Origin: a virus
DNA length: 64,000 nucleotides
IMG/VR virus record: IMGVR_UViG_3300025102_007089
Coordinates: 1-64,000 of that record
Direction: 5' to 3' (one strand)
Part shown: in pieces, positions 1 through 22,786 of the stretch
Layout of the letters: the number at the start of each line of letters is the position of its first letter
Numbering within the stretch: position 1 is the stretch's first letter
Notes under the pieces: generated by a model
The model's database searches: none
What the model was told of the DNA's origin: nothing
Seen by the model: only the letters and a program-made list of their open reading frames with translations
Translations under genes and position numbers: made by a program

Positions 1-674
1 TTAGATCCAGGTTTAGGCTTTGGTTTTGGAGGACTTGGAGGTGGGGTCGCGACACCATCTCTACCATCTCTACCATCTCTACCGTCACGTCCTGGTGCTG
101 GTGTAGGTGTAGGTTCCGGTGATGGTTTAGGTTCTGGGCCTGGCTTACCACCACCGGGATCAGGTGCAGGAGATTCAGGACCCGGGTCTGGTTTTGGAGC
201 TCCACCAGCTGGACCTATAGCTTTTCCATCTTTTGAAGTAACAGAAGTAAATTGGTATGTATTATCAGCTGATTGAAGAACTTTAATTGTACCACCGGTA
301 AGATCCCTAACCTCTTCTTTACCGCCCTTTTCATCTACAAAAGTACCTTGGTTTATAGGTATAATAAATATATTTTTATTATTTGGATCTTGGGTAGGGC
401 GTCCTAATGCATTTCTAGCTCGAATATCATCCTTATAATGCTCTCTTGCATAATCGTCATCTGTAAAATACTTTTGTACCGCCTTTAAAGGATCAGTAGC
501 ATTAATATCCTTTGCTATACCAGCTACACCCTTTGCAGCACCAACCAATGCTGGTGCATCTTTGGCTAACTGCTTTCCTACCTCACGCGTAGCAGCTCCA
601 AGACCAGCTCCTACCTTTTTCATAAATGAACCAAATCCTTCAGTTAAAACTTCTTTATGGGATAACTTTCTCAC
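1..674 (-). CDS. Partial: Pro-rich late protein with collagen-like Gly-Arg-Asp repeat
   Basis: The frame is open from a GTG at 674 to the left window edge, giving at least 224 residues; the C-terminus is outside. The start is fixed by an AATAAATA late promoter 5 bases upstream. Residues 1-15 (MRKLSHKEVLTEGFG) contain an L-x-E-G site like those cut by T4-type prohead protease. A glycine/alanine-rich amphipathic stretch follows, then a compact domain, a long Pro/Lys/Glu linker from about residue 145, and four consecutive Gly-Arg-Asp triplets, a short collagen-like segment. The family is not recognised. A packaged or head/tail structural protein is inferred from the promoter, leader and repeat. 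Confidence 0.75.
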   Translation of the reverse strand, partial: MRKLSHKEVLTEGFGSFMKKVGAGLGAATREVGKQLAKDAPALVGAAKGVAGIAKDINATDPLKAVQKYFTDDDYAREHYKDDIRARNALGRPTQDPNNKNIFIIPINQGTFVDEKGGKEEVRDLTGGTIKVLQSADNTYQFTSVTSKDGKAIGPAGGAPKPDPGPESPAPDPGGGKPGPEPKPSPEPTPTPAPGRDGRDGRDGRDGVATPPPSPPKPKPKPGS

Positions 675-726: not shown

Positions 727-1770
727 ATGAGTAAAAAAGATACTAATTATGAGTGGTTAGGTGATGATGATGAGCTAACCGGTGAAAAAGATGTTATTGC
801 TAAGAAGTTAATGGGTGAGGAATATAGTAAGAGTTATTTTCCCCCTATTAGAGTTTATGATGATAATGTTGATGCTAGTAAAGAATATATTTCTTCTTTA
901 CCTGATTTACAGAATGGACCTTCGAGTCTAATTCAAGGAGCTGCTGTACCTATTCAGCAAGTTGGTATTCATAACTTTAAACTGCCTCTTACTTATAAGA
1001 AACGTAATGGTAAAACTATTGAACTTGAAACTAGTGTTACCGGTAGTGTTAGTTTAGAAGCTCATAAGAAAGGTATTAATATGTCTCGTATTATGAGAAG
1101 CTTTTATGATCACAAAGACGAGACGTTTAGTATTGATAAGATTAAAGATGTTTTAGAAACTTATAAAAATAATCTTAAATGCTTTGACTCAAGAATAATG
1201 CTTAAGATTTCTTATCCTATCAAGCAGAATAGTTTACGTAGTGGTTTAGAAGGTTATCAATATTACGATGTTGTATTTGAAGGCGACTTAACTAAAGAAG
1301 GTGAGTTTAAGAAATATATTCATTTTGATTTTGTTTATTCTTCTGCCTGTCCTTGTAGCTTTGAGTTGAGTGAGCATGCTGAAAAGTATCGTAATAGAGC
1401 TACTGTACCTCATAGTCAAAGAAGTGTTGCTCGTGTAAGTGTTAGATTTGAGGATATGCTTTGGATTGAAGATATTCAAGAGTTATGTTTAGCAGCTTTA
1501 CAAACTGAAACGCAAGTTATGGTTAAGAGAGAAGATGAGCAAGCATTTGCTGAAAAGAACGGTGCTTACTTAAAGTTTGTTGAAGATGCTGTAAGATTGC
1601 TTTATGAAAAGCTTACTAATGAATCTCGTATCTTAGACTTTAAGATTGTTGCTTCTCATAATGAGAGTTTGCATAGTCATAATGCTGTATCAGTTATTGT
1701 AAAAGGTATTGAAGGAGGCTTTAAAGCTGGTGTTACTAGAGATGTTTTTGAATCTACTGGATTACGATAA
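727..1770 (+). CDS. folE2: GTP cyclohydrolase IB (FolE2 type)
   Basis: 347 residues. It opens the pterin ring path by converting GTP to dihydroneopterin triphosphate, the first step towards folate or 7-deazaguanine (preQ0) bases. FolE2 hallmarks are the VGIHNFKLPL segment near residue 79, KGINMSR near 115, and the S-A-C-P-C-S metal/catalytic motif with Cys208 and Cys210. The N-terminal ~60 residues are acidic and phage-specific. It has its own sigma70-like promoter, lies between two minus-strand late genes, and is followed 21 bases later by another plus-strand gene. With QueC at 22761 and an amidotransferase at 25176 it suggests base modification rather than folate supply. Assignment to FolE2 is firm; the pathway use is inferred. 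Confidence 0.9.
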   Translation: MSKKDTNYEWLGDDDELTGEKDVIAKKLMGEEYSKSYFPPIRVYDDNVDASKEYISSLPDLQNGPSSLIQGAAVPIQQVGIHNFKLPLTYKKRNGKTIELETSVTGSVSLEAHKKGINMSRIMRSFYDHKDETFSIDKIKDVLETYKNNLKCFDSRIMLKISYPIKQNSLRSGLEGYQYYDVVFEGDLTKEGEFKKYIHFDFVYSSACPCSFELSEHAEKYRNRATVPHSQRSVARVSVRFEDMLWIEDIQELCLAALQTETQVMVKREDEQAFAEKNGAYLKFVEDAVRLLYEKLTNESRILDFKIVASHNESLHSHNAVSVIVKGIEGGFKAGVTRDVFESTGLR

Positions 1771-1791: not shown

Positions 1792-2322
1792 GTGAATATT
1801 TTTGTAACAGATCATGATCCAGCTTATTCTACAATTAATCTTTGCGATCAGCATGTAAGATCAAAGATGCAGATTGAAGGAGCTATTATGTTAGCTCATG
1901 CTTTTCCTCAAGAAGTATTAGATCATCCATCTACTCCTAGAACATCAACTGGAAAGCCTCGAAGAAGGGGTAAAGGTTATTTTAATCATCAATGTTCTAT
2001 ATGGGCGAGGGAAACAAAAGATAACTTTAAGTGGTTAGTTGATCATACGTTAGAAATGTTTACTGAACGTATGTATAGATGGCCGGACTCAAATGAGCAT
2101 TTTACTAAGACGTTTATTGAGTGGTGTGGTAAAAATATCCATAATACTATAATGGATAATTATGGTTTAACTAATTACGCTTTAGCTATTGGTAAGGATT
2201 GTGAGTGCAGAAAGGTAAAAGGTTTTGATAACCTTTCAACAATTGACAAATATAGAGAGTATATTCGTTGTGATAAACCTTTTGCTACCTGGACGCAGCG
2301 TCGTATACCAGCTTGGTATTAA
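1792..2322 (+). CDS. Conserved marine-myophage protein of unknown function
   Basis: 176 residues from a GTG start. It begins MNIFVTDHDP and carries H-Q-C-S-I-W-A-R near residue 65, a W-L-V-D-H-T-L-E-M segment, several paired cysteines (D-C-E-C near 144) and a C-terminal TPTWY-like ending (IPAWY). This arrangement matches, from memory, a family widespread in T4-like cyanophages whose role is unknown; conserved His, Cys and Trp suggest an enzyme or metal site. Its stop codon shares TTAA with the stop of the convergent gene at 2319. Placement after FolE2 makes a joint early transcript likely. I do not assign a function. Confidence 0.75.
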   Translation: MNIFVTDHDPAYSTINLCDQHVRSKMQIEGAIMLAHAFPQEVLDHPSTPRTSTGKPRRRGKGYFNHQCSIWARETKDNFKWLVDHTLEMFTERMYRWPDSNEHFTKTFIEWCGKNIHNTIMDNYGLTNYALAIGKDCECRKVKGFDNLSTIDKYREYIRCDKPFATWTQRRIPAWY

Positions 2323-2759
2323 ATATCAGCTTCAATATTTTTATGAGCTATATTTTCTGCACTTACGTCAATTAATGCATCGAGCTCATTTTCAATAAAA
2401 TCCTTACCTACAAGAATTTTATATATATTTGAAGTTCTATCTCCTATAGAAAAAGGTACATTTTTAAATTCCTTATTTCCTATTTTAAAGTCAAATTCTA
2501 CCACCGGTCTATCTTCAGTATTACCGGCACCTACGTTAATTGTAATATTATCTTTCTTATCTTTAGTTAATCTTTTATTGTTAACTGTCTTAAAAACTAC
2601 TTTGTTACCTTGTTCTTGTATATCTTCACCGTGAAGTACATTAAATGCTCCATTACCAGAATCTAATTTAGCAGGAATTTTACCTACACCATCTACATCG
2701 AAGAATTCTATTAATCCTACGACACTTTTTTCTTCAAAGTAGTTCTTAAAATTTTTCAT
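2319..2759 (-). CDS. Retropepsin-like aspartic protease (PF05618-like) with capsid-targeting-like leader
   Basis: 146 residues from the ATG at 2759, one base after the upstream stop; a longer in-frame start at 2783 would overlap the upstream gene and hide the MKNFKNYFEE leader shared with neighbours. The body reads like the retropepsin-type 'ATP-dependent zinc protease' family: I-P-A-K-L-D-S-G-N with presumed catalytic Asp33, a central R-P-V-V-E-F strand and a C-terminal Y-K-I-L-V-G-K-D motif. Members are single-domain and would act as dimers. The leader and late-gene setting suggest it is packaged or acts in prohead maturation, in addition to or in place of a gp21-type serine protease, which is not in this window. 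Confidence 0.75.
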   Translation of the reverse strand: MKNFKNYFEEKSVVGLIEFFDVDGVGKIPAKLDSGNGAFNVLHGEDIQEQGNKVVFKTVNNKRLTKDKKDNITINVGAGNTEDRPVVEFDFKIGNKEFKNVPFSIGDRTSNIYKILVGKDFIENELDALIDVSAENIAHKNIEADI

Positions 2760-2760
2760 A

Positions 2761-3138
2761 TTAATCATGTGGGCATTCTTCACCTTCTGGGCATCCGCAT
2801 CCTTTTAAACTTTCATGTCCCATATTATACATACTATCTCCTCCCATTTCTTTAGTATGTTCGTAATCTAACCAATGGTATACTGAGGATAAATAATCAG
2901 CTGCTTTAGTAATTTTTGAAGCAGTCCATCCTTCTAAATCAGGAATACCATCTAACATAGCAGATATTTTTTCTGCATATTTATGAGCTTTTAATAGATC
3001 AGACTTAGCCATATGAATCTCAGAATTATCATGTTCGTGTTCATGTTCAACAGGAGGCTCTTCCTCAACAGCCTGTACAACCACCATACCTGGAGTCATC
3101 ATTTCATTAAGTAAGTTATCGTCTCTTCTATATCTCAT
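2761..3138 (-). CDS. Conserved virion-type protein with His/Glu-rich linker and Cys tail
   Basis: 125 residues. The first 15 include L-L-N-E-M, resembling a prohead-protease site. A His/Glu run (E-H-E-H-E-H-D) near residue 35 precedes a helical domain (KSDLLKAHKYAEKI... then WTASKITKAADYLSSV) typical of a short protein common in marine T4-like phages. The C-terminus G-C-G-C-P-E-G-E-E-C-P-H-D could bind metal. A GATAAATA late promoter lies 5 bases upstream, inside the end of the next gene. Function is unknown; a packaged or head-associated role is inferred. Confidence 0.75.
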   Translation of the reverse strand: MRYRRDDNLLNEMMTPGMVVVQAVEEEPPVEHEHEHDNSEIHMAKSDLLKAHKYAEKISAMLDGIPDLEGWTASKITKAADYLSSVYHWLDYEHTKEMGGDSMYNMGHESLKGCGCPEGEECPHD

Positions 3139-3143
3139 ACTAT

Positions 3144-3151
3144 TATTTATC
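3144..3151 (-). promoter_or_regulatory. Late promoter GATAAATA
   Basis: Minus-strand element 5 bases before the ATG at 3138; it overlaps the stop region of the upstream gene (3147-3809), so it can only add transcription for the downstream genes. Confidence 0.6.
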
Positions 3152-3809
3152 TATTATTCCAGTCTTTCTGCAGAATATTAATAATTGCATCTTTATCTGT
3201 TTCGTTAAGATCTAAGGGCGTAAATCTTTCAACTGCCTCTTCAATGTTACCAACTTCAAGATATTCCTTCATATCTTTTGCTCTTACACCACCTCCTAAT
3301 GCTTTTTCTTGAGCTATAAGTGTTACATGAGGGTATTTATCTTTATTTTCAAAACTTTTGTTACGAGCTGCATCACCCGGTCCGGACCCTATAATAATTT
3401 TTTTATCTGTATTTTCATCTGCAAAGTCATATGAACTCTTTACAGGACTTATAGGAGCAATATTTACCTCTACCGGCTTCCCAGCTTGAGTATATATTTC
3501 CCAAATAGCTTTAGATGCATCTGGAGTTATCCACTCTCTACCTGGTCTGTTTTGTTTTTTACCAATAAATATAACACCTTTATCTGCATCCTTTAAAAGT
3601 TTATTAAACATTTCTAAGTGACCTTTATGTGGTGGCTTAAATCCTCCAGCAAGTAAAGCTACTGTTTCGTTAGCATTCTCTTCTTGCTCAACTCTATCCA
3701 TATACCGCTTAGCTTCCTTCTCTGCTTCCTTCATATGAAACTGAGATATTTCCTCAGACTCAAATCTGGAACTAGGCTGTTGTTCAAAATATTCTTTAAA
3801 TGTTTTCAT
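3147..3809 (-). CDS. Nucleotidylyltransferase-fold protein (HxGH) with capsid-targeting-like leader
   Basis: 220 residues from the ATG at 3809, which overlaps the previous stop as TAATG; a start at 3839 is possible but would bury the leader MKTFKEYFEQ. After a charged helical N-terminus, residues 49-64 (TVALLAGGFKPPHKGH) form the phosphate-binding motif of the cytidylyl/nicotinamide-mononucleotide adenylyl-transferase fold, with His61 and His64 as the HxGH pair. I-S-P-V-K-S-S-Y-D-F further on resembles the second conserved ISxT/R-like motif. Substrate is unknown; NMN, pantetheine phosphate or a cell-surface precursor are all possible. The leader suggests packaging into the head. Confidence 0.8.
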   Translation of the reverse strand: MKTFKEYFEQQPSSRFESEEISQFHMKEAEKEAKRYMDRVEQEENANETVALLAGGFKPPHKGHLEMFNKLLKDADKGVIFIGKKQNRPGREWITPDASKAIWEIYTQAGKPVEVNIAPISPVKSSYDFADENTDKKIIIGSGPGDAARNKSFENKDKYPHVTLIAQEKALGGGVRAKDMKEYLEVGNIEEAVERFTPLDLNETDKDAIINILQKDWNNR

Positions 3810-4309
3810 TATGCTTCTTCCATAGTATCGGGATACCAATCTGGTAAAGGTGCTTCTTGTATCCTATTAGCGTATTCTTTTTTAGCTTCTTCAAAATCTG
3901 TTGATACTTTACCATCAACCATATCTTTTACAAAGCCTAAAGTAGCAGCGTTAGCATAGAGATCACCGCACCTTGCTGTTACTTCTTTTTTAAGCCCATC
4001 ATATATAATACTACCAGTAACATGACCTAAAGTATCTAACATATCTGCAGGTACATCAATATTCATTGTTGAATATACATAATCCCTATGTGCAGCAGGA
4101 AACTCATGAGGTATACTCTCGTCTTTAATATATACAGTATCAAATGGAGGCTCTATATTATTCCAAAGTAACATATTTTCAGTTACCTCATCCGGTTCAC
4201 CAAATTTCTTTATGAGCTTTATTGCGTAATCTCTAGCATCATCAAACTCCCAGCCTTTGAGAGATTCAACTGCACTACCTTCTTCAAAATATTCTTTAAA
4301 TGTTCTCAT
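3809..4309 (-). CDS. Hypothetical protein with capsid-targeting-like leader
   Basis: 166 residues starting MRTFKEYFEEGSAVES, almost identical in its first ten residues to the leaders of the flanking genes. E-E-G at 9-11 and a second acidic C-terminus (DTMEEA) stand out. The body is mixed alpha/beta with W-E-F-D-D-A-R-D-Y-A and a conserved-looking centre (PHEFPAAHRDYVYSTMNIDV). No family is recognised. The gene overlaps both neighbours by a few bases, so it is translated as part of one late operon. Confidence 0.65.
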   Translation of the reverse strand: MRTFKEYFEEGSAVESLKGWEFDDARDYAIKLIKKFGEPDEVTENMLLWNNIEPPFDTVYIKDESIPHEFPAAHRDYVYSTMNIDVPADMLDTLGHVTGSIIYDGLKKEVTARCGDLYANAATLGFVKDMVDGKVSTDFEEAKKEYANRIQEAPLPDWYPDTMEEA

Positions 4310-5520
4310 CGTTTAGTACTTGTTTGACCTCCGCTAAAGTTAGCACGACTAAACTCTAATCTATCTACAAGCTTAACTGCATCACCAGCTTTAGATACAC
4401 TTACATAGCCTTCAGGAGATGTTACTTTTAACGTACCGTCCTCTGCATCTAAGAAATGCTTAGTGTTATATACGGCATTATTATACTTGTTAATAAAGAT
4501 CTGTTTAGCTTGAGAAAGCAGCTTACTTACCTTAAAAATATTTACTATATCATCTTTTTGCTGGTTGAATTCAGCCATTTTCTTCTTAAAACTCTCTTCA
4601 ACTTTAAGTTTACCAGCTTTAGACTTTCTCTTTTCAATTTCTTTAGTCATTCTACCTTTAAACCAATCAACAAAGTTATTAAAAGACTCTTCTGGATTCT
4701 CTAAGAATTTACCTTTTTGAATCTCAGAGTTAGCATATATGTTTAATAAATCAAGAGGTAGATCATTATAATCTACTTTAATAGAGTCAGCAGTTTTAAC
4801 AAAATCCTTAACTTGTTTTGCTTCATCTGTTGTTAGAGTAACTGTTCCAGTAGTATCAGTAAATATAGCATCATCAACCCATACTCCTGGCACTTTTTTA
4901 AGCCCTTTTACATTAATACCATATTGCGGGGGGCTATCTAAATCAGCATACCCTGTATGGAATACAATACCGAATACTGAATTTGCTATTTCACTGCCTA
5001 ATTTTGAATCTTTCTCTACAGCATACTTAATTGTATTAGGTTTAAAAGTAAAATGCTCTACACCATCAATATTTTCTTTGTTAACAGATGATGAATCAAA
5101 CATAAAATCACCTTGAAGAATACCTTTTATACCAAGCTTAGGAAGATACTTAAGAGCTTTCTTTAATTTATCAGCTAAACCTGGCGCATGCCCGTGATTC
5201 ATCTCTATATCATTATCAGTATAGTTAATTTTTGGACCAGTTTTATTAAAAACTGATTTAGTACCTACGAAAAATTTACCAGTATCAGGATGTTTACCAA
5301 CAAACATAGCTGGCGCACCATCCCATTTAACAGAAGTATTAACCTTTCTTTTACTCTTACCTTGTAAATGTGATAATAAGTCAGTTATAAATCCTCTTGC
5401 TGTCTTATAACCACCTTCGCCTTTAGTAAGTACCAGCTCTTCTAAATGAGTAAGGTGTGTATTAGCCTTAGCTTCATTAAGAAGTTCGTATTGTTCAAAA
5501 TATAGTTTAAAGTTTTTCAT
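4306..5520 (-). CDS. KxDG-motif nucleotidyltransferase-like phage protein with capsid-targeting-like leader
   Basis: 404 residues. The leader MKNFKLYFEQYELLNEAKAN has an L-N-E-A site typical of prohead-protease cleavage. Residues 61-75 (NTSVKWDGAPAMFVG) contain Lys65-x-Asp67-Gly68, the nucleotidyl-lysine motif of the DNA/RNA ligase and capping superfamily; F-F-V-G-T-K-S, G-I-L-Q-G-D-F-M-F and G-I-V-F-H-T-G-Y follow in the order expected of further ligase-like motifs. Homologs are common in marine T4-like phages, usually annotated only as hypothetical (DUF6267-type, from memory). A coiled, basic C-terminal half follows. Covalent lysine-AMP chemistry is plausible but unproven. Start and upstream stop overlap as ATGA. 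Confidence 0.75.
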   Translation of the reverse strand: MKNFKLYFEQYELLNEAKANTHLTHLEELVLTKGEGGYKTARGFITDLLSHLQGKSKRKVNTSVKWDGAPAMFVGKHPDTGKFFVGTKSVFNKTGPKINYTDNDIEMNHGHAPGLADKLKKALKYLPKLGIKGILQGDFMFDSSSVNKENIDGVEHFTFKPNTIKYAVEKDSKLGSEIANSVFGIVFHTGYADLDSPPQYGINVKGLKKVPGVWVDDAIFTDTTGTVTLTTDEAKQVKDFVKTADSIKVDYNDLPLDLLNIYANSEIQKGKFLENPEESFNNFVDWFKGRMTKEIEKRKSKAGKLKVEESFKKKMAEFNQQKDDIVNIFKVSKLLSQAKQIFINKYNNAVYNTKHFLDAEDGTLKVTSPEGYVSVSKAGDAVKLVDRLEFSRANFSGGQTSTKR

Positions 5521-6629
5521 ACTAAGAAAAATTCTTTTGCAAAGGCTACTGAGGTATTACTACCCGGGTAGTAAATATACACCCCTTCACCGTCAAATTT
5601 AAATTTAATCATACCTTTTTCAACTGCATTAATTACTGAGCTCAACTGCCCAACATTAACATAATTAGACTTAAAAAAGGTACCTTTGTCCAATTCATCG
5701 GGTTTTGTTTTTCTACCCTGAAATCCTTTTTGATATACAGCTAATAAAATATTAAATCCATGCTGTTCATCTGATTCTCCATCTTTATTACCCTGGTTGC
5801 CATACTGAAAGAGCAATAATGCACCTAAGTAGTCTTTTCTTAGTTCAGGGCTATCGTAATCATAAACCTTTTTAAACGCTTCCGTACTAAATGCTTCTTT
5901 ACATAACTTACTATTAAAATCTTGCGAAGGGTTTATTTGATCTAAATTAATTTCACCTTTAGCTATTCCATTAATTAATTTTCTATCATTAGCAAAACCA
6001 GCTCCTCTAGCACTAATAACCCTACCCATTCCGGTTTTTACTTCAATCTGTAAACCGCTTGGTAATTCTAAATCACCTACTTTACCCTTTCTTGCCTCTG
6101 TTAACACAGATAAAGCTAGTTCACCCGCACCTACACTCACTACTCCTTCTTCGAATTTTCTTACAAATAATTGATTATAAAATTTCTTTTTCTCTTCTTC
6201 TTTTTTCAAGAATGAAAGTTGCGGATAACACACCTTAAATAAATCGACCTCACCCATTAAACCTGATAAATTTTCTCCTAATACATTTAAACCATCCTTA
6301 TTAGATACAAACTCTTTTAATTTACTATAATCGACGCTATAATCTAAAAATAAAAAATATAAAAATTTATTCTGGGTATTAAATCCCGCTTTTGTAGCTA
6401 GTGTATTAATTATTTCAATATCCTCGTTAGACATAAACGAACCCTTTACATTACCTTTAAAATAACCAGCTATTTTTTCTATCTCATCTTTATCTACTTC
6501 TACTTCTTCTACAGTATCATCATCAAATGTAAGAGTTAATTTAGCCTCTCCTAATACCTGTAGATGCTTACGTGGAGGTATATTACCCCCTACTTTCTCT
6601 TTATAGATTTTTTCTAGTGACCACTGCAT
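5517..6629 (-). CDS. Possible PD-(D/E)XK-fold nuclease
   Basis: 370 residues. Residues 168-198 give a plausible nuclease core: G-A-G-E (Glu170), G-D-L-E-L (Asp186) and L-Q-I-E-V-K (Glu196, Lys198), the D-x(n)-E-x-K arrangement of restriction-type nucleases. The N-terminus has V-L-G-E-A near residue 25, a likely prohead-protease cut site. The C-terminal part is rich in aromatic residues and has no recognised domain. It lies in the operon of leader-bearing genes and overlaps the KxDG gene start. The nuclease call rests on the motif alone; an inactive structural relative cannot be excluded. Confidence 0.5.
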   Translation of the reverse strand: MQWSLEKIYKEKVGGNIPPRKHLQVLGEAKLTLTFDDDTVEEVEVDKDEIEKIAGYFKGNVKGSFMSNEDIEIINTLATKAGFNTQNKFLYFLFLDYSVDYSKLKEFVSNKDGLNVLGENLSGLMGEVDLFKVCYPQLSFLKKEEEKKKFYNQLFVRKFEEGVVSVGAGELALSVLTEARKGKVGDLELPSGLQIEVKTGMGRVISARGAGFANDRKLINGIAKGEINLDQINPSQDFNSKLCKEAFSTEAFKKVYDYDSPELRKDYLGALLLFQYGNQGNKDGESDEQHGFNILLAVYQKGFQGRKTKPDELDKGTFFKSNYVNVGQLSSVINAVEKGMIKFKFDGEGVYIYYPGSNTSVAFAKEFFLV

Positions 6630-7287: not shown

Positions 7288-7792
7288 TCATAAGAGACAG
7301 TTTTACATTCATATCGTTAAGTAATTCAGCTTCTAAGTGCTTTAATTCGTACTTTTTAAGAAACTTACGAAATTTAGCTAAAGATATGTTAAATTTATCA
7401 GTTATAACGTGGTAATCAGATTCTCTATCACTTACAAACTCATCAAACGTATACTTATCGTATATAATATTAGGAGTTAATGAGTTAAATATTCGTTTTA
7501 CTAAAGATTCTTCTATAGTTTTTTCCGATTCAACCTTATAATAAAAATATTTTTTATACTTCGATGACTTGCAAGCACGTATAACCTCTTTTATTATAAA
7601 ATGAATACCTAATTTGTTCTTATCAGTACGCGAAAGTTTTAAATTATTTTCAGTTATATGAAAAATATACTCATTGAATGACTTAGTTAAGTAATAATTT
7701 AAATTAATTATATCTACATTCCGAACAGGATCATAGAAATTACTGTTTTCTTTTACCAATTCGGAGGTTGATAATTCCGTTATAGTAGTCAT
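7283..7792 (-). CDS. Hypothetical late-operon protein
   Basis: 169 residues, rich in Asn, Tyr, Lys and Ile, with helices typical of a small DNA- or protein-binding module (ITDKFNISLAKFRKFLKKY near residue 130 could be a helix-turn-helix, weakly). No leader-type N-terminus. Its first 53 bases overlap the end of the GIY-YIG gene in another frame, an unusually long overlap for this genome. No family recognised. Confidence 0.6.
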   Translation of the reverse strand: MTTITELSTSELVKENSNFYDPVRNVDIINLNYYLTKSFNEYIFHITENNLKLSRTDKNKLGIHFIIKEVIRACKSSKYKKYFYYKVESEKTIEESLVKRIFNSLTPNIIYDKYTFDEFVSDRESDYHVITDKFNISLAKFRKFLKKYELKHLEAELLNDMNVKLSLMT

Positions 7793-8141
7793 CTCGAGTT
7801 AATACTTCCTCTTCAAATTGTAACTTAGCTTCATAATAACTCAACTCCCATTTTGAATCACACCATCTAAGTATTTCAAACTTAAAACTATCCATACCTA
7901 ATGATTCAAGATCTTTATTAAGCTCATTTGATGAGGAAGTATAGGTTTTCCAATCTGTTTCTATTTTTTGATGGCGCTTATTCTTCTTACCCTTTAAAGG
8001 AGGACGCTTTCTAATAGATTGACATTGCTTCTTACCAATATACTTCTTATCATTAGTAAGATTAGTTATCTTATAAATGAAACCGTAAGGTAGGTCTGCG
8101 TTTTCTTCTAGAACCCCCTCCCAATGACCTAAATCTACCAC
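7740..8141 (-). CDS. GIY-YIG family nuclease
   Basis: 133 residues from GTG at 8141. Residues 20-37 (GFIYKITNLTNDKKYIGK) carry the G-[FI]-[IY]-Y ... K-Y-I-G core of GIY-YIG nucleases; a basic stretch (KRPPLKGKKNKRHQK) follows, and E-A-K-L-Q-F-E-E-E-V includes a candidate metal-binding Glu. Length fits a free-standing phage nuclease, either a homing-type enzyme or one degrading host DNA as T4 EndoII does. The gene is locked into the late operon by overlaps at both ends, which argues against a recently inserted homing gene. Confidence 0.8.
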   Translation of the reverse strand: MVDLGHWEGVLEENADLPYGFIYKITNLTNDKKYIGKKQCQSIRKRPPLKGKKNKRHQKIETDWKTYTSSSNELNKDLESLGMDSFKFEILRWCDSKWELSYYEAKLQFEEEVLTRDDYYNGIINLRIGKRKQ

Positions 8142-8602
8142 TTTCTACAAGACCAATACCTAGCTTTAGTCTTTGGCCCGGGATTATCGCAATTATGTCT
8201 AGCTCTGAATGATTTACGAGCTTTTGGATTACTCTTACGAATTTTCATAGTCTTCTCACCTTTTCTTTTAGCAGAAGTACCTCCATGACCGAAGTTTACC
8301 TTCTTTACATTACCAGTTTTAGGATCCTTAACGTATACTTTAAACTTCTTAACGTCACCTCTAGTAGGCTTGTTGAGCTTTACTTTTCTTCCTCTATATT
8401 CTGCATCTTCTTCTGGATCCTCTTCATCAGATCGTGCAGTATAATGTTTTGGATTCATTCGGAATTTAGGGCCCCCTGGTCCATCGGCACCAGCATCTCC
8501 TTTTCTTAACTTACCTTGTGAGTTATAATGCTTTCCTTTAGCAGCTTTTTGAGGATACTCAGTTCTTTCTAATAACTCTCTTACTAAATCATCAAATTCC
8601 AT
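8135..8602 (-). CDS. Basic phage protein with conserved ARHNCDNPGPKTKARYWSC tail
   Basis: 155 residues, highly basic. The N-terminus MEFDDLVRELLERTEY matches the short leader pattern M-x-F-D-x-L-V-x-x-L-L of the two genes downstream. The centre KKFKVYVKDPKTGNVKKVNFG and the C-terminus KSFRARHNCDNPGPKTKAR form a module I recall from many unrelated phages, often without function. The two cysteines and lysine-rich nature suggest a DNA-binding internal head protein. Late promoter CATAAATA is 5 bases upstream of the ATG. Confidence 0.75.
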   Translation of the reverse strand: MEFDDLVRELLERTEYPQKAAKGKHYNSQGKLRKGDAGADGPGGPKFRMNPKHYTARSDEEDPEEDAEYRGRKVKLNKPTRGDVKKFKVYVKDPKTGNVKKVNFGHGGTSAKRKGEKTMKIRKSNPKARKSFRARHNCDNPGPKTKARYWSCRKW

Positions 8603-8607
8603 AATAA

Positions 8608-8615
8608 TATTTATG
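8608..8615 (-). promoter_or_regulatory. Late promoter CATAAATA
   Basis: Minus-strand element 5 bases before the ATG at 8602. Confidence 0.65.
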
Positions 8616-8616
8616 C

Positions 8617-9141
8617 TTAACAGTGATAATTTAAATAACGTTGAAGAGCTTTAGCATAATGAGTGCCTTTATTTTTAAGCTTACCTTTAGCTCCTCGTAC
8701 CTTACTGCAAGAGAGACTACCTAGCCTACTTTTAAGTATACCAGGTTTTACTGGCTTATGAATATTTTTCTTCTCAGCATCTTCTTCCCTCATACGTTTT
8801 GTTTTTTTCTTACTAGCTTCTTTTTTCCTAGTAATATATTTAAAAGCAGCACTTAAACTCTTTTTCTTCTTAGGGTCCTTTACCCTGCCTTTAGCTGCTC
8901 TCACTCTTTGATGTATTAAATTAATTATTTGAGATTGTCTAGCATGCGACTTACTTTTAAATGAAGCTTTATTAAGAGTTTCTCTTATATCAGAAACAGA
9001 ACTAAATTTTACACTTACCGTATCACTTGGATTCTCATCAGTATATAATCTTCTACCCGATCCTTTCGGCTTTTTACCAGTACCTTTTTTAGGATCGCGC
9101 TTCTCTAAATATAAATTTACTAAATTATTAAACTCACTCAT
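8617..9141 (-). CDS. Lysine-rich internal-type protein
   Basis: 174 residues from the ATG at 9141, which overlaps the upstream stop as ATGA; a longer start at 9165 would lie inside the upstream gene. It opens MSEFNNLVNLYLEKRDP, paralogous to the leader of the next gene (MSEFDRLVEHYLNEA). The body is very basic (K-D-P-K-K-K-K-S-L-S-A-A-F-K and a KKEASKKKTKRMREED stretch) and ends with cysteines. It looks like a nucleic-acid-condensing head protein; function not known. Confidence 0.7.
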   Translation of the reverse strand: MSEFNNLVNLYLEKRDPKKGTGKKPKGSGRRLYTDENPSDTVSVKFSSVSDIRETLNKASFKSKSHARQSQIINLIHQRVRAAKGRVKDPKKKKSLSAAFKYITRKKEASKKKTKRMREEDAEKKNIHKPVKPGILKSRLGSLSCSKVRGAKGKLKNKGTHYAKALQRYLNYHC

Positions 9142-9422
9142 TTCTTTTTCTTTTTCTTCTTCCAACTAACACGCTTTGGACCCTTTTTCTTGTACATTTT
9201 TCCCTTTATACTCTTACAGGCTGCTTTAGTAGGTCGACATGCTGGGTAACTACCTCCAGATTTCTTAGATTTACGACCACAAGGACCACCAGTCTTACAA
9301 TTTACCCACCCCTTAAACTTCTTACCTGTTTTAGGGTCAGTACCACCTCTTTTAAACCATTGACGTAATGAGTCACTAGCTTCATTAAGATAGTGCTCTA
9401 CTAACCTATCAAACTCGCTCAT
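9138..9422 (-). CDS. Basic Cys-containing protein (DUF5872-like) with protease-site leader
   Basis: 94 residues from the ATG at 9422 (ATGA overlap with the upstream stop). The leader MSEFDRLVEHYLNEASD has an L-N-E-A cut site. The rest, SLRQWFKRGGTDPKTGKKF then G-W-V-N-C-K-T-G-G-P-C-G-R-K and Y-P-A-C-R-P-T-K-A-A-C, is a conserved module that I match from memory to DUF5872 in phages and giant viruses; four cysteines could bind zinc. Ends in seven lysines. A packaged DNA-associated protein is inferred. Confidence 0.7.
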   Translation of the reverse strand: MSEFDRLVEHYLNEASDSLRQWFKRGGTDPKTGKKFKGWVNCKTGGPCGRKSKKSGGSYPACRPTKAACKSIKGKMYKKKGPKRVSWKKKKKKK

Positions 9423-10150
9423 TTTTTCTTCCAAATTTTTCCTTTTCTACATCTAACTATAGCACCAGACTTATAAGCAGAAGTTTTTTTTCCATATACT
9501 GAATCAGCTTTCCTTTTACATCTATCCTCTGCTTCTTCTTCTTTATACCCCTTCTTCTTATAATCTTCAATTTCCTTTTTATTACCAGGAGGTAACTTTA
9601 CCCCTAACTTCCCATCTGGACTTCTTAACTTTACATGCTTTGCAAACTCTTTTTCAACTTTATCAGCATATTTTTTCGAAAACTTTTGCTTTACTTCATT
9701 ATTTTCTTCATCTTCAGCTTTATCAACATGCATAACAATCACTGTATCTTCATCTACTCCGTACTCTTTAGTACCATCACCCATATCATCCCACTCACCA
9801 GAGATACAATCTTGAACGTCAACTCCAGCATGATTACAAGCGTCTTCTAAAGAGTCAAACGTTTTGTCTGTATGCATAATTTGACCATGTTGTCCTCCTA
9901 CTGATCCTACGGAAAATTTAATGTTAGATTCTTCATTCTCCGGAAACATACGTTTTTGAACTCCTTTCTTCTTTTTCCCTAATGGCTTAGCTAGTCTAGC
10001 ATCTCCTGGTGTATTAGTATACTGCTTACCGCCACCCTCATCGTTCACATTCCGCATATGGGTTGATGGACCATCACCAAAAGCACCAGTACCTACATCC
10101 TCGTTAATTGATTTATAAAAATATTTAGCAAATTTTGAAGTAGAATTCAT
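9419..10150 (-). CDS. Late protein with basic KxGKIWK C-terminal module
   Basis: 243 residues. The N-terminus MNSTSKFAKYFYKSINEDVG is leader-like with I-N-E-D as a possible cut site. A Gly-rich stretch, an acidic beta domain (about residues 80-150) and a C-terminal basic module (CKRKADSVYGKKTSAYKSG ... V-R-C-R-K-G-K-I-W) follow; the last module recurs in small basic proteins of many marine phages. First gene of the late operon running to 8617, with a TATAAATA promoter 8 bases upstream. Packaged or structural role inferred. Confidence 0.7.
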   Translation of the reverse strand: MNSTSKFAKYFYKSINEDVGTGAFGDGPSTHMRNVNDEGGGKQYTNTPGDARLAKPLGKKKKGVQKRMFPENEESNIKFSVGSVGGQHGQIMHTDKTFDSLEDACNHAGVDVQDCISGEWDDMGDGTKEYGVDEDTVIVMHVDKAEDEENNEVKQKFSKKYADKVEKEFAKHVKLRSPDGKLGVKLPPGNKKEIEDYKKKGYKEEEAEDRCKRKADSVYGKKTSAYKSGAIVRCRKGKIWKKK

Positions 10151-10158
10151 ACTACTTA

Positions 10159-10168
10159 TATTTATAAT
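10159..10168. promoter_or_regulatory. Overlapping divergent promoters: late TATAAATA (-) and TATAAT (+)
   Basis: On the minus strand TATAAATA (10166-10159) precedes the ATG at 10150 by 8 bases; on the plus strand TATAAT (10163-10168) precedes the GTG at 10175 by 6 bases. The two elements share four base pairs, so late and early polymerase cannot occupy both at once. Confidence 0.6.
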
Positions 10169-10174
10169 ATATAT

Positions 10175-10570
10175 GTGGAATTACTTCAACAATACATAGA
10201 AGAAATAGGTAAAGATTTAGTTTTAGATGATTTTAACCTAAAAGAATCACAATTAAGACTTCCTTCTCGTAAGCATTACTGGGTAGCGAGACTTATTGAA
10301 GCTAAAGTTGATCGTAATAAATTACTAGCTAAAAAGAAATCTCTTAAAAAAGAAGTGGTTAAGCAAGTAGTACGTGATTCTCCTATAAAGATTACTCAAT
10401 CTGCCGCTGAATCAGCTGCTGAAAGTCATTCAAGTTTAACTAAGCTTAATGATGCTATAAAAGAAAGAGATATGATAATTGAATATCTTGAAAAGGTAGA
10501 GAAAATTATGTCTTCTATGGGATATGAAATAAAAAATATTGTTGAGATACAAAAAATGGAACAATTATAA
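10175..10570 (+). CDS. uvsY: UvsY-like recombination mediator
   Basis: 131 residues from GTG at 10175, close to T4 UvsY (137). It is predicted all-helical, with a conserved-looking W-V-A-R-L-I-E-A-K-V-D segment near residue 36, a Lys-rich stretch (NKLLAKKKSLKKEVVKQVV) and a C-terminal helix ending in the M-G-Y-E-I-K-N-I pattern like the SRGFAIKHIQ of T4. UvsY loads UvsX onto gp32-coated single strands. It is immediately upstream of UvsW, as in T4, which supports the call despite low sequence identity. Confidence 0.75.
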   Translation: MELLQQYIEEIGKDLVLDDFNLKESQLRLPSRKHYWVARLIEAKVDRNKLLAKKKSLKKEVVKQVVRDSPIKITQSAAESAAESHSSLTKLNDAIKERDMIIEYLEKVEKIMSSMGYEIKNIVEIQKMEQL

Positions 10571-11997
10571 TGATTGAGTTTAGTTATATTCGTGCTACAG
10601 GTAAGTTAAGAATAACTTGTTCTGATAGCTCTTTATTCGATAAAATTAGAGAGCATTTTTCTGTAGAAAATACAGGTGCAAGATTTGCAAGGAGATACTC
10701 TAGATTTGTACCGAGAAGAAAATATGCTATATCTAATACCGGGGTTTGTGAGTTAGGCATATATTGGGAAATAAGGCAGTACTTAATTAAAGAGCAAATT
10801 ACTGTAGATGTTGAAGTACAAGAAGAGTTACAAAACGAATTGAATGCAGGTACAACGAAAGAACTTTATGAGGATTTTGAATTTGAATTAAGAGAATATC
10901 AAAAAGAAGTAATTAAAAAAGCTTTAAAAATAGGTAGAGGTACTTGTGTTCTAGGTACTGGTGCTGGTAAGACTTTCACTACTGCAGCCCTTATTGAGAA
11001 TTATTTTAGAAATAGTGATAATAAAGATGTTTTTAAATGTGTAGTATTGGTACCTGATTTGGGATTAGTTACACAAACTTATGATGAGTTTTTAAATTGT
11101 GGTACATCATTTAAATTAACTAAATGGACGGGTAAAAATAAACCCGACTTAACTGCTAATGTAGTTATATGTAACATAGGTATAATACAGAGTCAGTTTA
11201 AAGATAATGACTGGATGAAATATATTGATTTACTTATAGTAGATGAGTGTCATAAGGTTAAAGCTACAAATAAAATAAGTAAAATTATATCTAAGATTAA
11301 AACCAAAAATAAGTATGGATTTACTGGTACGTTGCCAGAGGATCAATTAGATAAGTGGTCTATTATTGGTAAGCTAGGACCTGTTATATATGAAAAATCA
11401 AGTTATGAGCTTAGACTAGAAGATTACTTAGCTAACGTAGTTGTAAAGGTAGTCAATATTGAATATCAAAACCATCCAATATATCAAGGGGTAGATGGTT
11501 ACAGGGCTGAATTAGATTATATCTATGAAAGTGATAGAAGAAATACGTTTTTAACACAGTTATGTAGCAAGTTAGAGAACAATACTCTTATACTAGTTAA
11601 CCACATTTCTCATGGTGTAAATTTATCCGAATACCTTACACAGTGTGAAGATAAGCAAGTTTATTTTATTAGAGGTGAAGTAGAAGTAGATACTAGAGAA
11701 GATATAAAGAGAATAATGGAGAAAGAAACCAACGTTATATGTGTTGCTATGAGTTCTATCTTCTCTACCGGTGTCAATATCAAGAATATACATAATATTA
11801 TCTTCGCCGCGGGGGGTAAATCATTTGTAAGAACAGTACAGTCTATCGGAAGAGGTCTTAGAAAACATGATTCTAAAGATAAGCTAGTTATATTTGATAT
11901 TTGCGATAGACTTCGCTATGGTATACGTCATAGTGAAAAAAGAAAAGAAATTTATGAACGGGAGAAGATCAAGTATGTTGAGAAGAACATTAGTTGA
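10570..11997 (+). CDS. uvsW: UvsW-like SF2 DNA helicase
   Basis: 475 residues. An N-terminal double-stranded-DNA-binding domain (about 1-100) precedes helicase motifs: Q-K-E-V, Walker A GTGAGKT at 129-135, DECH at 225-228, Y-G-F-T-G-T-L-P near 265, and Q-S-I-G-R-G-L-R in the C-terminal RecA domain. It unwinds branched recombination intermediates and R-loops and helps the switch from origin- to recombination-dependent replication. Translation is coupled to uvsY (stop and start overlap by one base). Stop codon is TGA, showing that TGA terminates in this genome. Confidence 0.92.
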   Translation: MIEFSYIRATGKLRITCSDSSLFDKIREHFSVENTGARFARRYSRFVPRRKYAISNTGVCELGIYWEIRQYLIKEQITVDVEVQEELQNELNAGTTKELYEDFEFELREYQKEVIKKALKIGRGTCVLGTGAGKTFTTAALIENYFRNSDNKDVFKCVVLVPDLGLVTQTYDEFLNCGTSFKLTKWTGKNKPDLTANVVICNIGIIQSQFKDNDWMKYIDLLIVDECHKVKATNKISKIISKIKTKNKYGFTGTLPEDQLDKWSIIGKLGPVIYEKSSYELRLEDYLANVVVKVVNIEYQNHPIYQGVDGYRAELDYIYESDRRNTFLTQLCSKLENNTLILVNHISHGVNLSEYLTQCEDKQVYFIRGEVEVDTREDIKRIMEKETNVICVAMSSIFSTGVNIKNIHNIIFAAGGKSFVRTVQSIGRGLRKHDSKDKLVIFDICDRLRYGIRHSEKRKEIYEREKIKYVEKNIS

Positions 11998-12015
11998 AAA
12001 ACATTAAATTTAACC

Positions 12016-12021
12016 TATAAT
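12016..12021 (+). promoter_or_regulatory. -10 element TATAAT of gp55 gene
   Basis: TATAAT 8 bases before the ATG at 12030; predicted leader of about two bases. TTAAAT at 12005 is a poor -35, so an activator may be needed. Confidence 0.55.
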
Positions 12022-12029
12022 TATACCAT

Positions 12030-12476
12030 ATGGCCAAATCCAAAAAGAAGACAGAATATTATATAGAACCTAAAGTATTTAAAGCTTCGCTAAAAAAATA
12101 TTATGATTCAGATATACTTACTGATGACTTAGCAGAAAATATTAAAAAAATTGCTTATGGTTTAAGCTATAACTCTAATTTTATTAACTATACTTATAAA
12201 GATGATATGATCGGCGATGCATTAGTAAAAATGTATGCTGCTTTAAAGCATAAAAAATACAAGTTTGAAAGTAATTCTAATCCATTTTCTTACTTTACTA
12301 CTATAGCATTTAACGCATTTATTAATAGAATTAAGAAAGAGAAAAAACATCACGAAGCTATCTCTAATTACAAAGAAAAAGTTTACGAGGAATATATGTC
12401 TAATCCTGAGTATACCGGTGGAGGTGTTGTTTACGTCAAACCGGTAGATGAAGAAGATGACTTGTACAATCAGTAA
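12030..12476 (+). CDS. 55: Late-promoter sigma factor gp55
   Basis: 148 residues, shorter than T4 gp55 (185) but with the sigma region 2 core: D-D-M-I-G-D-A-L-V-K-M-Y near residue 63, then NPFSYFTTIAFNAFINRIKKE near 92, the segment that contacts core polymerase and reads the -10 DNA. The N-terminal NLS-like KSKKKTEYY matches the gp55 style. It redirects host polymerase, with the sliding clamp, to ATAAATA late promoters such as those before the minus-strand genes here. It overlaps gp47 by 29 bases. Confidence 0.9.
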   Translation: MAKSKKKTEYYIEPKVFKASLKKYYDSDILTDDLAENIKKIAYGLSYNSNFINYTYKDDMIGDALVKMYAALKHKKYKFESNSNPFSYFTTIAFNAFINRIKKEKKHHEAISNYKEKVYEEYMSNPEYTGGGVVYVKPVDEEDDLYNQ

Positions 12477-13512
12477 GCCTAGGTTCGCTATATTTTCAGA
12501 TCTTCATTTAGGCGTTCATTCCAATAGTACAGAATGGCATACGTATGCTGTAGAATGGGCTAATTGGTTTAAAGATGAATGTAAAAAGAAGAATATTAAA
12601 GACTTAATCTTTTGTGGTGACTGGCATCATAATAGAAGCGAAATATCAGTTAATACATTACAAGTTTCAGCCGATATTTTAGATATCTTATCAGGCTTTA
12701 ATATTATAGCTATTACCGGTAATCATGATATCTACTATAAACATCGTACTGATGTAAATTCGCTATCGATCTTTAAAAGACGTAAAAATGTAACTATTTT
12801 GGATAAGCCAGTTACTATAGAATCTTTTGATAAAACGATTACATTTTGTCCATGGAATACTAACCCTAAAGATATACCTGAGAGTGACGTCATATTCGGT
12901 CATTTTGAAATTGAAACCTTTAAAATGAATACTTATAAAGTATGCGAAGAGGGTGTTAAAGTAAAAGACTTATTAAAGAAAGGTGAACTTATTATATCGG
13001 GTCATTTTCATACTAGACATGAAAAGAGGTTTGGTAAGGGTACTATTCTATATTGTGGTAATCCATTTCAAATGGACTTTGGTGATGCAGGAAATCAAAA
13101 AGGGTTTTATACTTTAGATTTAGATAGAATGGAGTATGATTTTACTCCTAATAATATTTCACCTAATTATATGAAAATTACATTAGGGGAATTAGTAAGA
13201 GAAGGAAGCTTTACTAAAAGAATTATTGATATCATATCAAATAATATTGTAAAGCTAAAAGTTGATATGAATATATCTCAAGAAGATATGGATATTCTTC
13301 TTAAGAAGTTAAATTTACTTAAACCTAAAAACCTTACAGTAGATTATGATATAAATTTTAATCGATTGATAGATAACGTTGAAGATAAAGAAGATCTATC
13401 AGGCATTGATATTCCACAAGCCATTGAAGAATTTATTAATTTACTTGAAATTAACAATAAAAAGGATATCATAGATTATACCTTATCGCTGTATGAAAAG
13501 AGTAGACTTTAA
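12448..13512 (+). CDS. 47: gp47 recombination nuclease subunit (Mre11-like)
   Basis: 354 residues. Calcineurin-like phosphoesterase motifs are in order: F-S-D-L-H-L-G (D19, H21), G-D-W-H-H-N-R near residue 55, T-G-N-H-D near 90 and S-G-H-F-H-T-R-H near 185. It pairs with gp46 to resect double-strand ends for recombination and host DNA degradation. The start could be the ATG at 12448 or the one at 12457; both lie inside gp55 in another frame. It overlaps gp46 by 20 bases, matching the T4 47-46 order. Confidence 0.92.
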   Translation: MKKMTCTISKPRFAIFSDLHLGVHSNSTEWHTYAVEWANWFKDECKKKNIKDLIFCGDWHHNRSEISVNTLQVSADILDILSGFNIIAITGNHDIYYKHRTDVNSLSIFKRRKNVTILDKPVTIESFDKTITFCPWNTNPKDIPESDVIFGHFEIETFKMNTYKVCEEGVKVKDLLKKGELIISGHFHTRHEKRFGKGTILYCGNPFQMDFGDAGNQKGFYTLDLDRMEYDFTPNNISPNYMKITLGELVREGSFTKRIIDIISNNIVKLKVDMNISQEDMDILLKKLNLLKPKNLTVDYDINFNRLIDNVEDKEDLSGIDIPQAIEEFINLLEINNKKDIIDYTLSLYEKSRL

Positions 13513-21676: not shown

Positions 21677-22786
21677 ATGGATAAAGATGTTTTAAAAGCT
21701 TTAGATGATATTGATAAGGTTAATCCTTTTGCTACGTATCTAAGTGATAGTACTTTAAGTAGAGTTGGTACTTGGATTGATACCGGATCCTACGTATTAA
21801 ATGCTATTATTTCTGGATCAATTCACGGTGGTATACCTAAAGGTCGTGTAACTATGCTAGCAGGAGAATCTATGACGGGTAAGTCGTTATTCGTTCAAAA
21901 GATTCTAGCTAAAGCTCAAGAAGAAGGTTTAATTCCAGTAATTTTTGATACTGAAAATGCTATCGACCCTGAAGGTGCTGAAAGACTTGGCTTAGATATT
22001 AGTAAAGTAAAGTATGTACCTTGTACTAGTATCGAGCAAGCTAGAAACTCTCTATATAAGTTCCTTATGTCTGTTAAAGAAAAGGGTCTTGAAGGTAAAT
22101 TTATTGTAGCTATTGATTCTTTAGCTAACTTGCAATCTGAATTGGAACTTTCTCGTATGAGCAAAGATAGTACTTCATCAGATATGGGTACTAAAGCTCG
22201 AGCTATGAAAACATTAATGCAAACTTGTACTAATTTAGGTTCAGTAACTCAAACAACTATTCTTTGTACTAATCATGTTTATGATGATCCTACTGCTCTC
22301 TTTCCTTCTATTGAAAAGAATATGCCTGGTGGAAAGTCATGTATCTATTTACCTTCTGTAACTGTTCAACTAGCTCGTAAGCCTATTAAAGATGACGGAG
22401 GTAAAACTGTAGATGGCGAACTAGCTGTAGGTCAGAAAAAGTACTCAGGTATTATTATTAGAGCCTTAACTCGTAAGAATAGATTTATTAAGCAATATTT
22501 AGAAGGTGAAATGTACTTATCATTTTCTTCTGGTCTAGATAGGTATTATGGATTAGTTGATTTAGCTGTTGGTGTTGGTGCTGTAATTCAAACTGGAGCT
22601 ACTTATCAGCTTGAAGATGGTACTAAGTTAGGCTATTATAAGAATTGGAGAAAAGATACTAAGCTTTGGGAAGAGACTATCTTACCTAAAGTAGAAGAAC
22701 GTATTAAAAATGAATGGTCTTATAGTAATAACGAAGATGAAATCCCCGAAGAAGTAGAAGATGAAGAAATTAGTATTGACGCTTAG
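21677..22786 (+). CDS. uvsX: UvsX RecA-like strand-exchange protein
   Basis: 369 residues (T4 UvsX 391). Walker A is G-E-S-M-T-G-K-S at 64-71; V-I-F-D-T-E-N-A near 92, F-I-V-A-I-D-S-L-A-N-L (Walker B) near 141, and the DNA-binding loop region with Q-T-T-I-L-C-T-N-H near 190. The C-terminus is acidic (NNEDEIPEEVEDEE), as in UvsX. It catalyses homologous pairing with UvsY and gp32. Its last 26 bases overlap the queC start, tying 7-deazaguanine synthesis to recombination gene expression. Confidence 0.95.
   Translation: MDKDVLKALDDIDKVNPFATYLSDSTLSRVGTWIDTGSYVLNAIISGSIHGGIPKGRVTMLAGESMTGKSLFVQKILAKAQEEGLIPVIFDTENAIDPEGAERLGLDISKVKYVPCTSIEQARNSLYKFLMSVKEKGLEGKFIVAIDSLANLQSELELSRMSKDSTSSDMGTKARAMKTLMQTCTNLGSVTQTTILCTNHVYDDPTALFPSIEKNMPGGKSCIYLPSVTVQLARKPIKDDGGKTVDGELAVGQKKYSGIIIRALTRKNRFIKQYLEGEMYLSFSSGLDRYYGLVDLAVGVGAVIQTGATYQLEDGTKLGYYKNWRKDTKLWEETILPKVEERIKNEWSYSNNEDEIPEEVEDEEISIDA

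Follow-up and report, generated by a model that had tools for sequence, protein, structure and literature searches.

Capsid-targeting-type leaders on a row of predicted enzymes in a T4-like marine phage

In bacteriophage T4, the first 10 residues of the internal protein IPIII suffice for packaging, residues 4 and 7 acting in targeting and residues 8 and 10 in processing (PMC9026906; for this and the other papers cited, statements refer to the passages covered). In the T4 record, IPII and IPIII start with MKTYQEFIAE/A and IPI with MKTFKEF (here and below, a slash marks a cleavage site or a candidate one). Among cyanophages, homologues of the HxGH nucleotidyltransferase described below have been detected in virions of S-CREM2 (PMC10665884, detections of its Table 3), S-SZBM1 (PMC9146016) and S-SCSM1 (PMC9602691), and the covered passages of these three papers mention neither a targeting leader nor a protease site for this enzyme. 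Also, the protease RimB is known to cleave polyglutamate stretches (PMC11957791). In this study, we analyzed bases 1-64000 (the window) of the 80,613-base IMG/VR record IMGVR_UViG_3300025102_007089, and inspected the rest of the contig as well. The window contains a row of genes for predicted enzymes (an aspartic protease, an HxGH transferase, a protein of the DUF6267 family and a nuclease), and their products start with leaders resembling those of the T4 internal proteins.

Four proteins of the row, namely the protease, the HxGH protein, a 166-residue protein and the DUF6267 protein (MKNFKLYFEQ; the other starts are in Table 1), open with M[KR]xFKxYFE. This strict leader was present in 4 of the 108 window open reading frames (ORFs) of at least 60 residues, against a mean of 0.014 in shuffled sequences. 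A looser pattern, M[KR].[FY]..[FY], was also found four times (0.218 expected) and does not match the nuclease leader. When a regular expression was built on the T4 internal proteins, 3 of the 30 T4 coding sequences tested matched it, and these were the three annotated internal virion proteins. Across the IMG/VR loci that we fetched (numbered L below), the strict leader was carried by 193 of 3095 distinct ORF sequences, on several unrelated bodies, against 0.2 in shuffles; as loci of one contig may overlap and the phages are related, neither this count nor the nuclease count given below (62 of 68) represents independent events.

A search at the DNA level gave the same picture: a degenerate pattern for the leader retrieved at least 120 IMG/VR stretches, and a control with reordered codons retrieved 1. 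The census comprised 125 frames. After omission of 13 frames under 60 residues, the remaining 112 were grouped into 63 similarity clusters, and 46 of the 63 cluster representatives (complete, at least 90 residues) were taken into a Pfam scan. The protease, the 166-residue protein, the HxGH protein, DUF6267 and the nuclease of this row are all represented in these clusters, together with a polyvalent-type ADP-ribosyltransferase, a zeta-toxin-like kinase and an acetyltransferase. The invariance of M1, K2, F4, K5 and E10 in the alignment of the census sequences carries no evidential weight because the search pattern forces these residues. As to individual cases, the canonical leader stands on the ADP-ribosyltransferase in L264 (5994-6659) and on the kinase in L192 (12943-13677); the acetyltransferase is probably L160 6886-7389, an assignment not checked singly.

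The nuclease begins with a different, 28-residue leader (MQWSLEKIY...LGE), which is well conserved (Table 1), whereas mean pairwise identity is 16.1% in the linker after it and 18.7% in the C-terminal part. The leaders are exchanged between relatives: L183 encodes a protein related to the window nuclease (E 3e-12, one pairwise comparison) that has the canonical leader instead of MQWSLEKIY, and in L254 a DUF6267 protein stands behind the canonical leader. This exchange argues that the 28-residue segment may serve as a targeting leader too, doing the same job as the canonical one. Candidate prohead-protease sites after Glu were identified in the protease (E10), DUF6267 (LNE/A) and the nuclease (LGE/A). 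Directly ahead of the DUF6267 domain, [LIVF]xE had a clear position in 26 of the 28 relatives; a broader script count included all 28, although inspection showed the remaining two sites to be less clear. A conserved GLIE of the protease was also considered as a cleavage site and was dropped, as it looks domain-internal and E10 already closes the leader.

The rest of the contig encodes a T4-like portal, prohead protease, gp23 and terminase, and the phage is therefore a T4-like myovirus. Its gp21-type prohead protease (contig 78017-78682) matched PF03420 (Peptidase_S77) with 113.2 bits and the PHROG of head maturation proteases. Among the phage records listed as best matches to its DNA polymerase, mostly Synechococcus phages, identity does not exceed about 33%. 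Acidic core-like proteins are also encoded, for example at contig 71281-72180.

The virion proteomes of cyanophages provide a further line of evidence. In their sequence records, the HxGH proteins detected in virions start with MKNFSSFLTE/A (S-CREM2), MRFRQFIIE/A (S-SZBM1) and MKSFLQFLKE/A (S-SCSM1). Among the S-CREM2 proteins, the 10-residue T4 expression matched 3 of the 52 reported as virion-detected and none of the 167 undetected (P 0.013), the three being a S-adenosylmethionine (SAM) hydrolase, a kinase-like protein and the HxGH enzyme. T4 and the window had served to define the expression, but the S-CREM2 N-termini had already been viewed beforehand, and this prior look influenced a looser pattern (5 of 52 against 1 of 167). 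In S-SZBM1, the leader-bearing HxGH protein was reported as detected and its leaderless DUF6267 neighbor was not. Thus the word "packaged", by which a sequence-only reading had described this row, is well supported by the T4-like leaders, the prohead protease on the same contig and the virion-detected HxGH homologues, whose leaders are of this kind too. Of the explanations considered, loading into the head through a T4-type capsid-targeting leader has the best support, and we consider it likely. Concerning the S-CREM2 proteins reported in virions, the SAM hydrolase (3837-5081) starts with MKDFDSFLEE, the kinase-like protein (10579-12846) starts with MKRFDAFLTE, and a Cas9-like nuclease (7704-10313) has RFASFMAEA near its start; ORF156 (NTP_transf_2) was likewise reported.

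For the protease, the 146-residue form was used (the 154-residue ORF has 8 extra N-terminal residues). D33, S34, G35 and N36 were invariant in the 30 aligned sequences, as were M1 and F4 of the leader, and E10 was present in at least 90%. The single sequence scored 23.5 bits with PF05618, below the cut-off of 27, and the alignment profile matched PDB entry 9g58 (ATP-dependent zinc protease domain) with an E-value of 8.8e-7. These matches suggest a RimB-like retropepsin-type aspartic protease.

The HxGH protein scored 20.2 bits with PF01467, just under the cut-off of 21, and its profile matched phosphopantetheine and NMN adenylyltransferases in the PDB (best E 2.2e-4). G63 and H64 were retained in 22 of 22 aligned sequences, the first His being often replaced by Thr. 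In adenylyltransferases of the nicotinamide mononucleotide type (NMNAT), ISGTxxR is a nucleotide-binding motif. Many relatives contain ISGTxTR and the window protein does not, reading a degenerate GGGVRAKDMK; NMN adenylylation is therefore doubtful and we did not file the protein as an NMNAT. It appears to be adenylyltransferase-like, of a different, shorter subfamily than the cyanophage copies. In L071, L076, L079, L080 and L081, long fused proteins contain the HxGH domain, a middle domain and DUF6267 in succession, with [LI]xE sites near the junctions, and in L069 and L073 the fusion runs in reverse order, DUF6267 before HxGH. That the fusion occurs in either order suggests that the two work together.

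The DUF6267 protein matched its Pfam family (PF19782) with 326.9 bits. K65, D67, G68, E370, G371 and K383 were invariant in 28 of 28 sequences, and D138, not Glu, stands at the position that we take to be ligase motif III. The AlphaFold2 model, obtained with the 28 sequences, had a mean predicted local distance difference test score of 78.4. Foldseek gave weak matches, with RNA ligase, capping enzyme and T4 Rnl1 at the top of the list (best E 0.12), while in a second structural comparison (VIA) all 50 matches listed were polynucleotide ligases, the best with a Z-score of 9.1 and a root-mean-square deviation of 3.6 over 182 residues. On the basis of these matches and of the invariant Lys, Glu and Lys motifs, we predict DUF6267 to be an RNA-ligase-type covalent nucleotidyltransferase that contains a helical insert. 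Compared with PDB sequences, the DUF6267 and nuclease profiles gave chance-level matches only. Of 50,697 phage records, 461 contained a DUF6267 match, most of them from cyanophages, and a literature search on the family found nothing. A protein of 305-499 residues precedes DUF6267 in HTVC008M, DLP6, Syn1 and S-SZBM1, with no match to the window nuclease profile in any of the four, and the HxGH gene directly follows in Syn1 and S-SZBM1. Near DUF6267, HTVC008M (L149) also encodes a zeta-toxin/P-loop kinase (7673-8335) that starts with MIPFILKEG, an LxE-like stretch, and an NT5C-like phosphatase (12239-12829) with an LxE-like N-terminal stretch (..LVQEQ..).

The protein encoded at the head of these enzyme genes is predicted to be a fast-diverging PD-(D/E)XK-type nuclease. 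G167, E170, G185, D186, E196 and K198 were invariant in 17 of 17 sequences despite 19-53% identity to the window protein. From 115 loci, 72 distinct ORFs directly before DUF6267 were obtained, 4 from named phage records were dropped, and GD..ExK was present in 62 of the remaining 68 IMG/VR ORFs, against 0.56 in shuffles. VIA gave weak fold matches for the model, of which 5 of 9 were restriction enzymes, in agreement with the motif: Eco15I (Z 3.5, the best), NhoI (3.2), PvuII (3.2; two of the five) and DpnI (2.4). Foldseek returned nothing below an E-value of 0.4, the phage collection held no close relatives, and nothing above chance was found for the nuclease and its relatives in PHROGs, Pfam and PADLOC. 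As the bodies at first looked unrelated, we had considered a locus that swaps unrelated domains behind a fixed leader; this idea was dropped because the full alignment showed one diverged nuclease family. In S-SCSM1, ORF90, which stands before the HxGH gene, is annotated as a virion protein and has lost the Glu of ExK; it is tied to the window nuclease by position only.

The genes of the row are neighbors on the same strand, several overlapping by a few bases (Table 1). With gaps, the order GIY-YIG, p169, p117, p98, nuclease, DUF6267, HxGH, p125, protease recurs in most of the 31 loci listed. The 166-residue protein had no Pfam or PHROG match; with its relatives, nothing above chance appeared in PHROGs, Pfam and PADLOC. 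All 13 relatives found in the fetched loci carry the leader.

Table 1. Genes and leader segments of the row, in window coordinates.
Feature	Position	Strand	Remarks
RimB-like retropepsin-type aspartic protease (predicted), 146 residues, D33-S-G-N	2319..2759	-	starts MKNFKNYFEE
125-residue protein without such a leader and without assigned function	2761..3138	-	between protease and HxGH genes
HxGH (cytidylyltransferase-like / NMNAT-like) nucleotidyltransferase (predicted), 220 residues, HKGH 61-64	3147..3809	-	leader MKTFKEYFEQ at 3780-3809
166-residue protein without assigned function	3809..4309	-	leader MRTFKEYFEE at 4280-4309
DUF6267 protein, 404 residues, predicted RNA-ligase-type covalent nucleotidyltransferase (K65xDG, G137-D138, E370-G, K383)	4306..5520	-	PF19782
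Hypervariable PD-(D/E)XK-type nuclease (predicted), 370 residues, E170, D186, E196-x-K198	5517..6629	-	motif conservation
Protease leader, 10 residues (F4, Y7, E10), capsid-targeting type	2730..2759	-	conservation; T4 IPII/IPIII leaders
DUF6267 leader, 16 residues, MKNFKLYFEQYELLNE, candidate prohead-protease site LNE/A	5473..5520	-	[LIVF]xE before domain in relatives
Nuclease leader, 28 residues, MQWSLEKIYKEKVGGNIPPRKHLQVLGE, candidate site LGE/A	6546..6629	-	79.3% mean pairwise identity

The sequence-only reading had pointed to catalytic motifs in four enzymes (the Asp-Ser-Gly of the protease, HKGH, KxDG, and the D186/E196-x-K198 set of the nuclease), and all of them lie where it had placed them. 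Its term "enzyme kit" is likewise well supported by the conserved catalytic residues and the ligase-type model of the KxDG protein. The list of four enzymes left out a fifth gene of the row, at 3809-4309, with the same type of leader. Of the four, three carry the canonical leader, and the nuclease leader is of another type. The further idea of that reading, a joint delivery that would affect host NAD, RNA/DNA ends or defence, is speculative: NMN adenylylation is doubtful for this HxGH copy, and certain cyanophage homologues of DUF6267 bear no leader.

Several other genes of the phage were observed around the row. A SegE-like GIY-YIG endonuclease (window 7740-8141, minus strand, PF19835, 115 bits) is conserved in most relatives, close to the start of the row. 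At window 8135-10150 (minus strand), small, very basic proteins show a different N-terminal pattern (MSEFxxLVxxYLNEA, MEFDDLVRELLE, MNSTSKFAKYF), which may be an additional kind of leader, used by head proteins that condense DNA. Outside the window, a polymerase-beta-like nucleotidyltransferase is encoded at contig 72252-73292 (plus strand), and its relatives (L091 8186-8920, L035 3151-3885, L041 9491-10222) carry a MKxFKLFFES leader. At window 1-674 (minus strand) lies an ORF that is cut off by the contig end; its first residues form a short segment closed by LTEG, a possible further prohead-protease site. A FolE2-type GTP cyclohydrolase (window 727-1770, plus strand, PF02649, 244 bits) and what we take to be a QueC-like protein (window 22761-23516, plus strand) may belong to a 7-deazaguanine pathway for modifying DNA or tRNA.

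We propose that an N-terminal targeting helix, of the MKxFKxYFE or the MQWSLEKIY..LGE type, would bring each protein into the prohead core, where the gp21-type protease would remove the leader after Glu, and that the mature enzymes would then exit the head with the DNA during infection. As to what they would do in the host, separately or together, we can offer a best guess: the hypervariable nuclease might cut nucleic acid of the host or of a competitor, DUF6267 and the HxGH protein, as partners, might perform adenylate or nucleotide chemistry on nucleic-acid ends or cofactors, and the RimB-like protease might cut acidic or polyglutamylated protein. We assign a probability of roughly 0.78 to this explanation of the cassette as one of head-packaged enzymes, the substrates being guesses.

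Some observations count against it. The DUF6267 homologues of S-SZBM1 and Syn1 are without leader, and SSZBM1_141 (the leaderless DUF6267) and SSZBM1_142 are absent from Table 1 of PMC9146016. In S-CREM2, 23 of the 26 detected non-structural proteins lack the leader-plus-site pattern; the leader therefore looks sufficient but not necessary for presence in the virion. No clear LxE site follows the leader in the window HxGH protein, nor in the protein at 3809-4309, and the former lacks the ISGTxTR of its relatives, as said above. Finally, the refuting condition set with the sequence-only reading, namely unrelated folds or catalytic residues missing from homologues, did not refute it: DUF6267 is ligase-type in its model with its residues kept, and the exceptions lie in the HxGH protein just named and in the nuclease, with its weak fold matches, EVG in place of ExK in the canonical-leader relative of L183, and 6 of 68 ORFs at its position without GD..ExK.

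Strong variability is also known from the T4 internal proteins, and with the catalytic residue altered in L183 and in S-SCSM1 ORF90, the positional counterpart, the protein at the nuclease position could be a packaged anti-defence decoy or inhibitor on a nuclease-like scaffold, with a role like that of IPI-III. We regard this as unlikely, given that the catalytic set is kept in all 17 divergent members and GD..ExK in most ORFs at this position. Somewhat less likely, in our view, is that the proteins are prohead-core components for head maturation rather than host effectors, for example a second protease acting on acidic core peptides or a nuclease acting on packaged DNA. The polyglutamate cleavage by RimB and the acidic core-like proteins of the phage would fit such a role, and packaging alone does not show delivery; however, nuclease bodies only 16-19% identical are unlike conserved head-assembly parts, and it is not obvious what the ligase and HxGH enzymes would do in assembly. 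Least likely are auxiliary enzymes of the usual intracellular kind, for NAD salvage or nucleic-acid repair, with a helix that is a core-binding or solubility element and a virion detection due to carry-over: the cyanophage papers themselves allow for contamination (PMC10665884, PMC9602691), DUF6267 is leaderless in two cyanophages and the genes adjoin replication genes in HTVC008M, Syn1 and S-SZBM1, but the leader is of the T4 internal-protein type on unrelated bodies, its 10-residue form in S-CREM2 marks none but virion-detected proteins, and in S-SZBM1 the leader-bearing neighbor was detected and the leaderless one not.

Head packaging followed by injection would have consequences beyond this phage. 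It would give a sequence rule for proteins loaded into the heads of such phages, and the question raised by cyanophage proteomics, whether NMNAT is cargo or contamination, becomes directly testable. DUF6267 gains a predicted fold and chemistry, and a rapidly diversifying nuclease, if it enters with the DNA, would be a natural place for phage-host or phage-phage conflict. More tentatively, T4-like environmental phages might possess a general, modular head delivery in which at least two interchangeable leader types stand on dozens of unrelated enzyme domains, DUF6267 with the HxGH transferase as its partner, the RimB-like protease and the hypervariable nuclease among them, with some of the cargo made as polyproteins split by the prohead protease and a nucleic-acid attack-and-repair kit injected before phage gene expression.

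In the literature passages covered, we found no report of leader use for this enzyme set, of a ligase-type DUF6267 or of a leader-tagged hypervariable nuclease. No marine-phage paper with "capsid targeting sequence" was among the matches listed, which does not establish absence from print because the listings covered part of the matching papers. A text search of the polyvalent-protein paper did not find a retropepsin.

Compared with known systems, the row is closest in its leaders to T4 IPI, IPII and IPIII, with which it shares leader position, length and pattern (M-K-x-aromatic4-x-x-aromatic7, Glu10), a gp21-type protease in the genome, and variable bodies behind a conserved leader. However, the T4 cargo consists of small restriction inhibitors, whereas that of the window consists of enzyme domains in one operon, and one window leader, on the nuclease, is of another type. 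The virion NMNAT/cytidylyltransferases of S-CREM2, S-SZBM1 and S-SCSM1 are also HxGH enzymes, all three with a leader, and the window protein differs from them in its subfamily. Like the RNA ligases (Naegleria RNA ligase, T4 Rnl1/Rnl2), DUF6267 has the KxDG lysine, a Glu before a C-terminal Lys motif and, in its model, a similar fold (Z 7-9); unlike them, it has GD for GE at the presumed motif III and, ahead of the presumed motif IV, some 120 residues of helical structure. The window protease resembles RimB in its profile match and DxG aspartate motif, but has DSG instead of DTG, scores below the Pfam cut-off and bears a phage head leader. Polyvalent proteins, which occur in phages and conjugative elements, are a packaged multi-enzyme cargo, thought to be early-acting, and fusions of HxGH, middle domain and DUF6267 recall them; in the window, by contrast, every enzyme has a gene and a leader to itself. 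Since T4 already possesses the leader system, the cassette would be a T4-type capsid-targeted cargo with an enzyme set that is new relative to the passages covered.

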